Translations under genes and position numbers: made by a program | Part shown: piece by piece, positions 8,422-10,736 of the stretch | Position numbering within the stretch: position 1 is the stretch's first letter | Layout: every line of letters begins with the position of its first letter | Source: an uncultured Traorella sp. | GTDB lineage: Bacteria > Bacillota_I > Bacilli_A > Erysipelotrichales > Erysipelotrichaceae | NCBI RefSeq assembly: GCF_944327115.1 | Contig: NZ_CALVGS010000122.1 | Span: forward strand, 1-64,000 | Length of the DNA stretch: 64,000 bases | Direction of reading: 5' to 3' | Notes under the pieces: generated by a model | The model's input: the letters and a program-made list of their open reading frames with translations, nothing else | What the model was told of the DNA's origin: nothing | Database searches by the model: none

Positions 8422-9312
8422 ATGGCAATTACGGCACAAGATGTAAAAGCGTTAAGAGAAAAAACAGGTGCAGGAATGATGGACTGTAAAAAGGCCCTGA
8501 CTGAATGCGACGGTGATATTGAAAAGGCCAGTGAATGGCTGAGAGAAAAGGGTATCGCAAAGGCTGCTAAGAAGGCCGGACGTATTGCTGCGGAAGGAGC
8601 TACTCGTGTAGCTGTTGACAACAATACAGCCGTTATCTTTGAAGTCAATTCAGAAACAGATTTTGTTGCGAAAAACGAACAGTTTTTAGCGCTGATGGAT
8701 ACGATCCAGAATTTATTGCTGAAAAACAAGCCAGCTACTGTTGAAGAAGCAATGGCTGCTAGTATGGATGGCAAGACATTGGAAGAATTAGTTACCGATG
8801 CTACGGCAACGATCGGTGAAAAGATTACTTTCAGAAGATTCAAGATCGTTGAAAAAACAGATGCTGATGTATTTGGTGCTTATATTCACATGGGCGGCAA
8901 GATCTCTGCTCTAACTGTTTTAACAGGTACAAATGATGCAGCAGTAGCAAAAGATGTTGCAATGCAGGTAGCTTCTATGAATCCGCAGTATGTTTCCCGT
9001 GAGGATATGCCTCAGGAAGCTATTGAGAATGAAAGACATGTCCAGATGGAAATCTTAAAGAATGATCCTAAGCTTTCCAGCAAGCCTGAAAAAGTACTTC
9101 ACGGAATCGTTGAAGGAAGACTTACAAAGTCACTTCAGGAAATTTGCTTAGTTGATCAGGTTTACTTTAAGGAACCGGATCTGAAGGTTGGCCAGTATGT
9201 GAAGAATCACAATGCAAGCGTGAAGTCTTTCGTACGCTATGCTGTTGGTGAAGGTATTGAAAAACGTCAGGAAAACTTTGCTGAAGAAGTAATGTCACAG
9301 ATTAACGGATAA
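8422..9312 (+). CDS. tsf: Translation elongation factor Ts
   Basis: EF-Ts is the guanine-nucleotide exchange factor for EF-Tu. The N-terminal UBA-like domain has the signature [21 protein letters not shown] (about residues 9-29). The core has [16 protein letters not shown] and [19 protein letters not shown], and the C-terminal module is present. The 296-residue length is normal. A clear AGGAGG-type site precedes the ATG. rpsB-tsf is the canonical operon, and a strong terminator follows immediately. pyrH, often next, is not here. Confidence 0.97.
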
Positions 9313-9315
9313 TTG

Positions 9316-9344
9316 AAAAACCTATGCTGATGCATAGGTTTTTT
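9316..9344 (+). terminator. Terminator after tsf
   Basis: CCTATGC (9321-9327), loop TGAT, GCATAGG (9332-9338), then six T's. Flanking A's and T's lengthen the stem. Confidence 0.85.
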
Positions 9345-9354
9345 ATATACATGA

Positions 9355-9420
9355 TTGAATAATCGCTATATTATGATATAATATTAGTAATCATTCTCAA
9401 AATAAAAGAAGAATGAGAAT
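9355..9420 (+). promoter_or_regulatory. Promoter with downstream inverted repeat for the rubredoxin-like gene
   Basis: TTGAAT (9355-9360), 16 bases, TATAAT (9377-9382) form a sigma-A promoter. Starting just after it, ATTCTCA (9393-9399) and TGAGAAT (9414-9420) form a perfect 7-base inverted repeat separated by 14 bases. A second register, TCATTCT/AGAATGA, overlaps it. The repeat would lie at the very start of the transcript. It could be an operator, for instance of a Fur/PerR-type regulator, or a 5' mRNA hairpin ending next to the ribosome-binding site. Confidence 0.5.
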
Positions 9421-9439
9421 ATGGAAAGGAAGAATGACT

Positions 9440-9604
9440 ATGTGGATGTGTTCGATTTGCGGCTATGAATATGATGGTGAAGATTTTTTAAGCGTTGAGG
9501 ATGATTATGTTTGTCCTTTATGTGAATCAAAGAATTCATATCGTGACAGAGATATGAATTCGGAAATCGAAATGGCTGTAAGAGAATTTAAAAATAATGA
9601 GTAG
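9440..9604 (+). CDS. Small rubredoxin-like protein
   Basis: This 54-residue protein has two metal-ligand knuckles, CSICGYEYDGEDF near the N-terminus and YVCPLCES about 20 residues later. This is the C-x-x-C-G-Y...C-P-x-C arrangement of rubredoxin and rubrerythrin C-terminal iron domains. Rubredoxins carry one electron on a single iron and often supply peroxide- or superoxide-reducing enzymes in anaerobes. The knuckle spacing is shorter than in classic rubredoxin, so zinc binding is possible. I place the start at ATG 9440, with AAAGGA at proper spacing. ATGs at 9413 and 9434 are also in frame. The gene is monocistronic, with its own promoter and terminator. Confidence 0.7.
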   Translation: MWMCSICGYEYDGEDFLSVEDDYVCPLCESKNSYRDRDMNSEIEMAVREFKNNE

Positions 9605-9632
9605 AGCTGCTTAGGCAGCTTTTATTTTTTTT
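9605..9632 (+). terminator. Terminator after the rubredoxin-like gene
   Basis: AGCTGC (9605-9610), loop TTAG, GCAGCT (9615-9620), followed by a long T-rich run to 9632. Confidence 0.85.
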
Positions 9633-9670
9633 AAAAGAATAAATTCATGGATACCAGATGATTTAAACTG

Positions 9671-9797
9671 TGATATAATGAAACAGGAAAGAAGGTGTTT
9701 GTATGTCTCCTGAGCCCTTAGGCCCTGATCGAAGTAGAATGAAGAATAAAACAGGAGATATGCAAGACTATCTCCTGTAAAAAGGGAGGTAGGAAAT
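9671..9797 (+). promoter_or_regulatory. corA leader: extended -10 promoter and mutually exclusive hairpins
   Basis: An extended -10 box TGA-TATAAT (9671-9679) gives a start near 9686. Segment 1 (9704-9712) can pair with segment 2 (9752-9760) over 9 positions. Segment 2 (9751-9760, ACAGGAGATA) can instead pair perfectly over 10 bases with segment 3 (9769-9778, TATCTCCTGT) around an 8-base loop. Segment 3 (9769-9776) can also pair over 8 positions (two G-U) with GGGAGGTA (9784-9791), the corA ribosome-binding site. Thus 2:3 frees the site and 3:4 masks it. Segments 1-3 lie within a short leader ORF. The pairings are seen in the sequence. The switching is inferred. Confidence 0.6.
9703..9780 (+). 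CDS. Putative 25-residue leader peptide upstream of corA
   Basis: A short ORF starts at ATG 9703 behind AAAGAAGGTG (spacing about 7) and ends at TAA 9778-9780, 17 bases before the corA ATG. Its N-terminus, MSPEPLGPDRSR, alternates proline with acidic residues and then turns basic. The Mg2+-responsive leader peptides of enterobacteria (MgtL, beginning MEPDP) have the same character. There, ribosomes destabilised at Pro/acidic codons in low Mg2+ change the downstream RNA fold. The C-terminal half is encoded by the 2:3 hairpin. I infer a sensing role. It could be a chance ORF, though its start site, ribosome-binding site and position favour a real one. Confidence 0.55.
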   Translation: MSPEPLGPDRSRMKNKTGDMQDYLL

Positions 9798-10736
9798 ATG
9801 ATTGAATTCTACAAGACTTTTAATAATGTAACTAAAAAAATAGCAGCACCTGAAAAAGGCTGCTGGATCAATGTCGTACATCCGAGTACAGAGGAAACAG
9901 AATATCTGGTCAATGAAGTTAAGGTCCTTCCTGAATTTGTCAAGGCTTCTTTAGATGAAGAAGAAAGCTCACACGTGGATTATGATGAAGATGAAGGCCA
10001 GACGCTGGTGATCGTGGATTATCCGAATGCTGATGATGATCCAAATAACAAGACGCTGCTTTATACGACCTTACCGTTAGGTGTCGTCATCATGAAGGAT
10101 TATATCGTAACGATCTCGCTTCAGGAAAATCTCAATATAGAAGATATGGCTGAAGGCAGGATCAAAGGAATGAACACAGAGCTCAAGACACGTTTTCTGC
10201 TCTTGCTGCTTTTGAGGATTTCCCAACGTTATCTGATTTATCTTCGTCAGATTGACCGTGAATCCTCACGAACAGAAAGAAAGCTTCATCAGTCAATGCA
10301 GAATAAGGAATTGATCCAGATGCTGGGACTTGAAAAATCACTGGTATATTTTTCCACTTCTCTGAAGTCAGATGAGGTTACCCTGAATAAGATCATGCGT
10401 GGCAAGCTGATCAAAATGTATGAGGATGATCAGGATCTTTTAGAAGATGTCATGATTGAAATTCATCAGGCAGTTGAGATGTGTAATATTTATTCAAATA
10501 TCTTGTCAGGTACCATGGATGCTTTTGCTTCGGTCATTTCCAATAACTTGAATATCGTTATGAAAGTGCTGACGGTCATTACGATCGTTATGGCAATTCC
10601 AAATATCATTTTCAGCTTTTATGGGATGAACGTTGAAGGGCTTCCTGTGGCACAGTGGTGGTTTCCGACCCTTCTGGCAGTGATTGCCTGTCTGATTGCC
10701 ACATGGATCTTTAAGAAAAAGGATATGTTTCATTAA
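9798..10736 (+). CDS. corA: CorA-family magnesium/divalent cation channel
   Basis: CorA is a pentameric inner-membrane channel that admits Mg2+ (and Co2+ or Ni2+) down the membrane potential. The 312-residue protein has a large acidic cytoplasmic N-terminal domain and a long helix (about residues 150-260). Two C-terminal membrane segments are joined by the signature YGMNVEG, with the GMN motif at about residues 276-278. The end KKKDMFH is the usual basic cytoplasmic tail. The strong GGGAGG site is part of the leader hairpin system described above. The gene is monocistronic and convergent with cca, with a shared terminator. Confidence 0.95.
   Translation: MIEFYKTFNNVTKKIAAPEKGCWINVVHPSTEETEYLVNEVKVLPEFVKASLDEEESSHVDYDEDEGQTLVIVDYPNADDDPNNKTLLYTTLPLGVVIMKDYIVTISLQENLNIEDMAEGRIKGMNTELKTRFLLLLLLRISQRYLIYLRQIDRESSRTERKLHQSMQNKELIQMLGLEKSLVYFSTSLKSDEVTLNKIMRGKLIKMYEDDQDLLEDVMIEIHQAVEMCNIYSNILSGTMDAFASVISNNLNIVMKVLTVITIVMAIPNIIFSFYGMNVEGLPVAQWWFPTLLAVIACLIATWIFKKKDMFH

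Follow-up and report, generated by a model that had tools for sequence, protein, structure and literature searches.

Upstream of the Mg2+ transporter gene corA, bacteria of the order Erysipelotrichales carry a short leader open reading frame (ORF) that is likely to act as a dwell-time translational attenuator, in which a ribosome on the first leader codons controls corA. The leader was examined in a window of 64,000 nucleotides (the whole stretch of DNA analysed) from an uncultured Traorella sp., whose closest named genome is that of Traorella massiliensis (Erysipelotrichaceae, Erysipelotrichales, Bacillota; CorA 96% identity). Within about 115 nt, the leader region holds all of the elements through which control would be exerted:

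9669-9679, forward strand: extended -10 promoter element, TGTGATATAAT; a -10 of this type stands before 41 of 44 leaders.
9692-9697, forward strand: leader Shine-Dalgarno sequence AAGGTG, read from the sequence; GAAGGTG or GTAGGTG is kept in the leader alignment.
9703-9780, forward strand: leader ORF of 25 codons, MSPEPLGPDRSRMKNKTGDMQDYLL; homologous leaders in 44 genomes keep the N-terminus, and their C-terminal part and stop position vary.
9703-9712, forward strand: segment 1, ATGTCTCCTG, made of the leader start codon and codons 2-4; its partner is segment 2 (9752-9761), with covariation at z -5.2 to -7.5 against swapped partners.
9709-9720, forward strand: codons 3-6, the conserved Pro-acidic-Pro-(acidic) motif, P-E-P-L in the window; counts below are over 31 representatives.
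9751-9761, forward strand: segment 2 (9751-9760 is ACAGGAGATA), pairing with segment 1 (OFF) or segment 3 (ON), with covariation.
9769-9778, forward strand: segment 3, TATCTCCTGT, pairing with segment 2 (ON) or the corA Shine-Dalgarno sequence (OFF), with covariation.
9784-9791, forward strand: segment 4, the corA Shine-Dalgarno sequence, GGGAGGTA, hidden by segment 3 in the OFF form according to covariation and accessibility modelling.
9798-10736, forward strand: corA, a CorA-family Mg2+ transporter of 312 aa, the sole CorA in the genome.

A first-pass annotation of this DNA had described an ORF with its own ribosome-binding site and three pairings, and a re-reading of the sequence places all of them exactly where it had put them. 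The ORF begins MSPEPLGPDRSR and reads ATG TCT CCT GAG CCC TTA GGC CCT GAT CGA AGT AGA ... CTC CTG TAA. In the window, pairing 2:3 comprises 10 perfect base pairs (9751-9760 with 9769-9778) and pairing 3:4 comprises eight, including two G-U (9769-9776 with 9784-9791). The region folds better than 200 of 200 dinucleotide shuffles (z -3.8). A -10 of the TATAAT or TACAAT type, mostly extended (TGTGN), lies 23-31 nt 5' of the leader ATG in 41 of the 44 leaders, which suggests that the leader is the first ORF of the corA transcript; in the window, this transcript would start at about 9686. No U-run stands behind 2:3 or 3:4 in the leader sequence, so there is no intrinsic terminator and control is probably exerted at translation. 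An Rfam search of the leader region (9300-10100) returned nothing relevant and left the M-box (RF00380) unmatched. Just 5' of the corA promoter lies a 63-aa ORF (9413-9604) with two CxxC pairs and weak rubredoxin or zinc-ribbon matches.

The product of the downstream gene carries the CorA domain (PF01544, E 1.6e-51) and the GMN signature (YGMN in the translation), and scores 112 bits against the narrower NCBIfam CorA model TIGR00383, under its cut-off of 200.75. The assembly, about 96% complete, yielded no MgtE, no MgtA/B ATPase over the family cut-off and no M-box match anywhere. With one CorA and none of these others, the genome has no recognisable Mg2+ importer besides this corA.

Orthologues of corA were collected by searching Erysipelotrichales with the window CorA. 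A homologous leader precedes all 42 of the 42 close orthologues (at least 68% identity to the window CorA) and two more divergent genes (L012 and L063), giving 44 genomes in 18 genera and two families. These ORFs run to 12-31 codons and typically begin MSPEPE, MSPEPD, MSPDPS, MSPDPL, MAPEPE, MTPEPEP, MSSDP, MSPVPE, MSPLPED, MSASPDP, MFPDPE or MSLDADG. A covariance model of the leader (R1), run against 311 genomes of the order, gave a single strong match in each of 43, always directly 5' of corA, and only noise-level matches in other orders of the class; since R1 was trained on these same leaders, the absence of strong matches elsewhere is the informative part of this search. Weaker R1 matches within the order, sampled by eye, looked like chance hits in or beside unrelated genes, with the exception of L145, a true leader before mgtE. 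A leader of the corA type was not seen before CorA genes of other families of the class or of Anoxybacillus. Alignment of relatives thus recovered what the first-pass annotation had proposed to look for, namely a conserved ORF and stems with Pro/acidic codons and covariation in the stems. Recurrence in 44 genomes and 18 genera, together with cognate pairing that is better than swapped pairing, leads us to dismiss a chance origin.

Some other upstream ORFs were noticed before corA. Two more distant corA genes of one genus (L078 and L080) have a different leader starting MDAGPYHD at -109 to -55. Outside the order, upstream ORFs precede one f21 gene and two f9 genes, and two corA genes of another family of the class (L223 and L225) have upstream ORFs with early acidic residues, MPEDICRYY and MSSDINRS, about 140 nt upstream, which are possibly related leaders.

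Native segment pairs were compared with segments exchanged between species in a swap test of 20,000 permutations, using sets of 30 representatives (<80% identity), 24, and 21 (<62% identity). Among the 30 leaders, native pairing energies were -12.5 kcal/mol for 1:2, -13.4 for 2:3 and -11.7 for 3:4, against -10.5, -9.9 and -9.5 kcal/mol after swapping (z -6.2, -7.8 and -7.4, respectively), figures that carry no correction for shared ancestry. The 21 most divergent leaders gave z -5.3, -6.6 and -6.8 for the same pairings, and at all three redundancy thresholds 0 of 20,000 permutations reached the native value for any of them. The non-partner controls 1:3 and 2:4 were flat, at 0. Segments of L012 were picked by hand in the first swap test, which was repeated without L012. 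Column counts agree, with changes on both sides at five of 10 pairs of 1:2 and four of five pairs of 2:3, and compensatory examples include TCTTC/GAAGA/TCTTC in L056-L057, TCTTT/AAAGA/TTCTTTT in L041 and TTCCC/GGGAA in L063. In 3:4, the Shine-Dalgarno core is invariant and covariation at its flanks is modest (position 6, p 0.006; positions 6-9 jointly, p 0.04). The three mutually exclusive pairings put forward earlier are thus held by compensatory changes in the alignment, with uncorrected shared ancestry as the main statistical caveat.

Because the stems covary independently of the peptide, and because RNA helices are stabilised by Mg2+, a switch made of RNA alone could be imagined, in which Mg2+ or temperature acts directly on the stems and the ORF is incidental. 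We regard this as extremely unlikely: the leader Shine-Dalgarno sequence and ATG are conserved, the Rfam search gave no match, and codons 4-6 are kept at the amino-acid level outside the helices. Over the 31 representatives, Pro is found at codon 3 in 25, Glu or Asp at codon 4 in 27, Pro at codon 5 in 29 and Glu or Asp at codon 6 in 19, and the leader peptide varies freely from codon 7 onward. All synonymous codons are used within the motif. The codon 5 prolines are CCC (12), CCG (12), CCA (3) and CCT (2), so that all four synonymous Pro codons are in play, and the acidic codon 4 is GAG (11), GAC (8), GAT (5) or GAA (3). Segment 1 consists of the start codon and codons 2-4, and the opening "MSP" could therefore be kept for pairing alone; it is partly set by RNA pairing, and the true peptide-level evidence in the alignment is codons 4-6. 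No stem includes codon 5 or the second and third bases of codon 4, which argues for selection on a Pro-acidic-Pro-acidic nascent chain within the first six residues. The Pro/acidic leader of the first-pass annotation thus holds as a motif of codons 3-6 conserved across the order (consensus P-E/D-P-E/D), and needs qualifying in that "MSP" is partly driven by pairing and that the window leader itself has Leu at codon 6, with Pro-Asp at codons 8-9. Three leaders have no acidic residue at codon 4 (MSPVPER twice and MSPLPED).

The prominence of Pro5, the most conserved residue, raises the question of whether the leader senses proline, proline-tRNA or EF-P, pausing when charged tRNA-Pro is short; the Salmonella mgtCBR leader has been reported with a Pro-responsive attenuator (PMC3641672, PMC8092293). 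The leaders have just two or three Pro codons, non-adjacent and in all four synonymous forms, the acidic residues are conserved as much as Pro, and the two leaders with no Pro (MSLDADGH and MSLDSDGH) retain Asp. The target, moreover, is a Mg2+ transporter, and we find a proline sensor very unlikely. A D-x-D-G stretch recurs in corA leaders L041 and L043 and in mgtE leaders L151 and L152 (MSLDADGH, MSLDSDGH, MCTDPDGN and MCTDSDGN); it is reminiscent of a cation-binding loop, and may be due to chance.

The effect of ribosome position on corA was modelled by folding the inferred transcript while a ribosome footprint of 29 nt was moved from codon to codon, and calculating the openness of the corA Shine-Dalgarno sequence at equilibrium. 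Across 30 leaders, mean predicted openness was 0.06 in vacant RNA, 0.30, 0.32, 0.30 and 0.24 with the P-site at codons 1, 3, 5 and 7, and back to 0.06 with it at codons 9 and 11. Compared with vacant RNA, a ribosome at codon 5 raised openness in 25 leaders and lowered it in none (Wilcoxon p 9e-10), and in several leaders the modelled ON state reached openness of only 0-0.2. The window responds more sharply, with 0.02 when vacant, 0.64-0.75 with a ribosome at codons 1-7 and 0.02 at codon 9 and beyond. In silico, vacant openness of the window became 0.71 when segment 1 was synonymously recoded and 0.77 when segment 3 was changed, and was 0.02 when segment 2 was changed. The folding model agrees with the earlier assignment, in which 2:3 switches corA on and 3:4 switches it off.

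Under the dwell-time attenuator that we favour, transcription would begin just 5' of the leader. With the leader empty, or with a ribosome past about codon 8, 1:2 and 3:4 would form and corA would be off; a ribosome on codons 1-7 would mask segment 1, allow 2:3 to form, free the corA Shine-Dalgarno sequence and turn corA on. Motif codons 3-6 sit where slow elongation would hold the ribosome in the ON position, and the fact that the ON window (codons 1-7) encloses the motif is the strongest argument for slow or abortive elongation as the signal. We infer that the leader is translated and that ribosomes pause or abort at the motif. The Pro-acidic motif would probably slow or destabilise ribosomes at low Mg2+, so that corA would be made when Mg2+ is scarce. 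Low Mg2+ is the presumed signal because the target is CorA, the motif resembles the EPDP of E. coli MgtL and the layout matches Salmonella mgtQ-mgtB.

The first-pass annotation had arranged the same elements differently, with ribosomes dropping off at the Pro/acidic codons in low Mg2+, the empty leader folding 2:3 to free corA, and full translation covering segment 2 to shut corA. That scheme fits the same anatomy, E. coli MgtL is an established case of intrinsic ribosome destabilisation at EPDP (PMC11282234), and the stop codon lies no more than 7 nt before segment 2 in every leader, so that a ribosome completing the leader always covers segment 2. However, vacant RNA is predicted to be OFF in the window and on average over the 30 leaders, where 1:2 outcompetes 2:3, and loss of leader translation in mgtQ lowers the transporter rather than raising it (PMC8092293). 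Drop-off alone should thus not activate corA, contrary to the earlier claim; either dwell on codons 1-7 is needed, or 2:3 must be trapped before drop-off and then persist. With segment 4 not yet transcribed, the model (30 leaders) gave 2:3 a frequency of 0.27 on an empty leader and 0.83 when a ribosome stood at codon 5. We consider the drop-off scheme doubtful.

A terminating ribosome over segment 3 also opens the Shine-Dalgarno sequence in many leaders in the model, which leaves room for other readings of the same anatomy. One is translational coupling, in which a ribosome that completes the leader would open 3:4 and start again at corA, leader translation doing no more than feeding corA. About half of the leaders, that of the window among them, do have their stop codon where segment 3 ends, separated from the corA Shine-Dalgarno sequence by 3-10 nt. 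The position of the stop codon is nevertheless not kept: at one extreme it precedes segment 2, at the other it stands 3 nt from the Shine-Dalgarno sequence, and in L036, L037 and L060, where it falls within the hairpin loop or 5' of segment 2, the distance to the Shine-Dalgarno sequence is 31-39 nt. This variation argues against coupling as a common principle. Coupling would also have no need of segments 1 and 2 or of the conserved codons 4-6, and we judge it unlikely.

In attenuators of the ermC type, a ribosome held in the leader masks segment 1, 2:3 forms and the downstream ribosome-binding site opens, with a macrolide as the inducer. In the corA leader, the place of the macrolide would be taken by slow codons 3-6 and a presumed low-Mg2+ cue. 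The closest relative in design is Salmonella mgtQ-mgtB (PMC8092293), which likewise has a short ORF with early Asp/Glu codons and segment 1 inside it (leader nt 1-10 in corA), pairings 1:2 and 3:4 that exclude 2:3, a 3:4 hairpin hiding the ribosome-binding site of a Mg2+ transporter, and control at translation; leader translation and slow passage favour expression there, as is predicted for the corA leader. In that system, the dwell-time model correctly anticipates the behaviour of mutants in the stems, of a segment 1 disrupted by silent changes, of a leader deprived of its start codon and of substitutions at Asp2/Glu5 (PMC8092293). The two also differ. mgtQ has 8 codons and lies between mgtC and mgtB in an operon under PhoP, whereas the corA leader has 12-31 codons and its own promoter, in Bacillota. 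The single Pro codon of mgtQ acts only via RNA pairing, in contrast to the conserved Pro-acidic-Pro of the corA leader, and no sequence homology between them was seen. Layout and peptide chemistry are thus known from mgtQ; target, lineage, promoter and the conserved Pro-acidic-Pro start are different, with no evident homology.

Other Mg2+-responsive leaders resemble the corA leader in part. MgtL, which controls mgtA in E. coli and Salmonella, has a Pro/acidic motif just past its start (EPDP, compared with SPEP or SPDP, P-[ED]-P at codons 3-5, in corA leaders) and also targets a Mg2+ transporter. It acts by Rho-dependent transcription termination through a long leader, unlike the corA leader, which has no intrinsic terminator and a sequestered Shine-Dalgarno sequence. 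The resemblance to Mg2+-responsive leaders that had been pointed out therefore stands, in motif with MgtL and in anatomy with mgtQ-mgtB, but the choice of MgtL as the parallel gives way to mgtQ-mgtB, which shares the translational 1:2/2:3/3:4 layout. The corL ORF of E. coli and Salmonella is a short upstream ORF before corA that responds to Mg2+, and its own translation is inversely related to corA expression (PMC11552253); it differs in its UUG start, few Pro/acidic codons, Rho-dependent termination and other RNA structures. The M-box (RF00380) provides cis-acting Mg2+ control of Mg2+ transporters in Bacillota through a Mg2+-binding aptamer, and has no match in the window genome or the corA leader. 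The open-access literature searched describes no such leader before corA or mgtE in Bacillota, in keeping with the earlier remark that no peptide of this type was known for a Firmicute corA.

The mgtE genes of Erysipelotrichales also often have a short ORF preceded by a Shine-Dalgarno sequence, starting MDDKPGG, MDNPGG, MDEIPKS, MDGSPH, MDERPR, MDDLPC or MEIPDN, or containing DVPEP. By a rule of at least two Asp, Glu or Pro residues in codons 2-7, qualifying upstream ORFs were found at 25 of 68 mgtE loci, 45 of 70 corA loci and four of 132 other genes, those four being corA genes with a mis-called start. The control genes had seven upstream ORFs in all, and removing the four mis-started corA genes leaves a true background of 3 in about 128, none with both acid and Pro. 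At three mgtE loci, an M-box (RF00380) and a leader ORF stand in tandem (L151, 275-441; L158, 302-468; L177, 3000-3153), an arrangement that would stack two Mg2+-type controls on one transcript. The ribosome-sliding test gave no early opening in the mgtE leaders. We therefore do not extend the corA mechanism to mgtE, and use only the peptide chemistry and the target of these leaders as support.

Among mgtE upstream regions L148-L217 (e.g., L157, L172, L165 and L153), acidic/Pro leader starts include MDDLPCN and NDVPEP. The leader's own Shine-Dalgarno sequence is paired to a segment further 3', and that of mgtE is often buried in a second hairpin. An EDHLPP or EDHVP stretch near the C-terminus of some mgtE leaders (L200, L212, L187 and L189) was considered as an arrest motif and rejected, since the codons encoding it form the reverse complement of the region around the leader's own Shine-Dalgarno sequence and start (GGTGG...ATG), so that RNA pairing explains the stretch.

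We put forward only tentatively, as somewhat short of an even bet, the broader idea that nascent-peptide Mg2+ sensing is general in this branch of Bacillota. Pro/acidic leaders would then have arisen independently before CorA (SPEP/SPDP) and several MgtE lineages (MDDxP, MDNPGG, MDEIP, DVPEP), in some cases in tandem with an M-box, and would form the translational equivalent of MgtL and MgtQ in enterobacteria. In the open-access literature found, Mg2+ sensing by leader peptides that destabilise the ribosome is described only for enterobacterial mgtA, mgtB and, weakly, corA. If true, a conserved and apparently independent version in gut Firmicutes, with like peptide chemistry placed at the same early codons, would point to acidic/Pro nascent chains as a general gauge of Mg2+. 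The requirement that the slow codons fall within about seven codons of the start provides a sharp and testable distinction between pausing and drop-off, and the corA leaders offer dozens of natural variants that could show what early sequences make ribosomes slow down or leave. For Erysipelotrichales gut bacteria, a ribosome lingering on the first leader codons should open the corA ribosome-binding site, with low magnesium as the likely cue.
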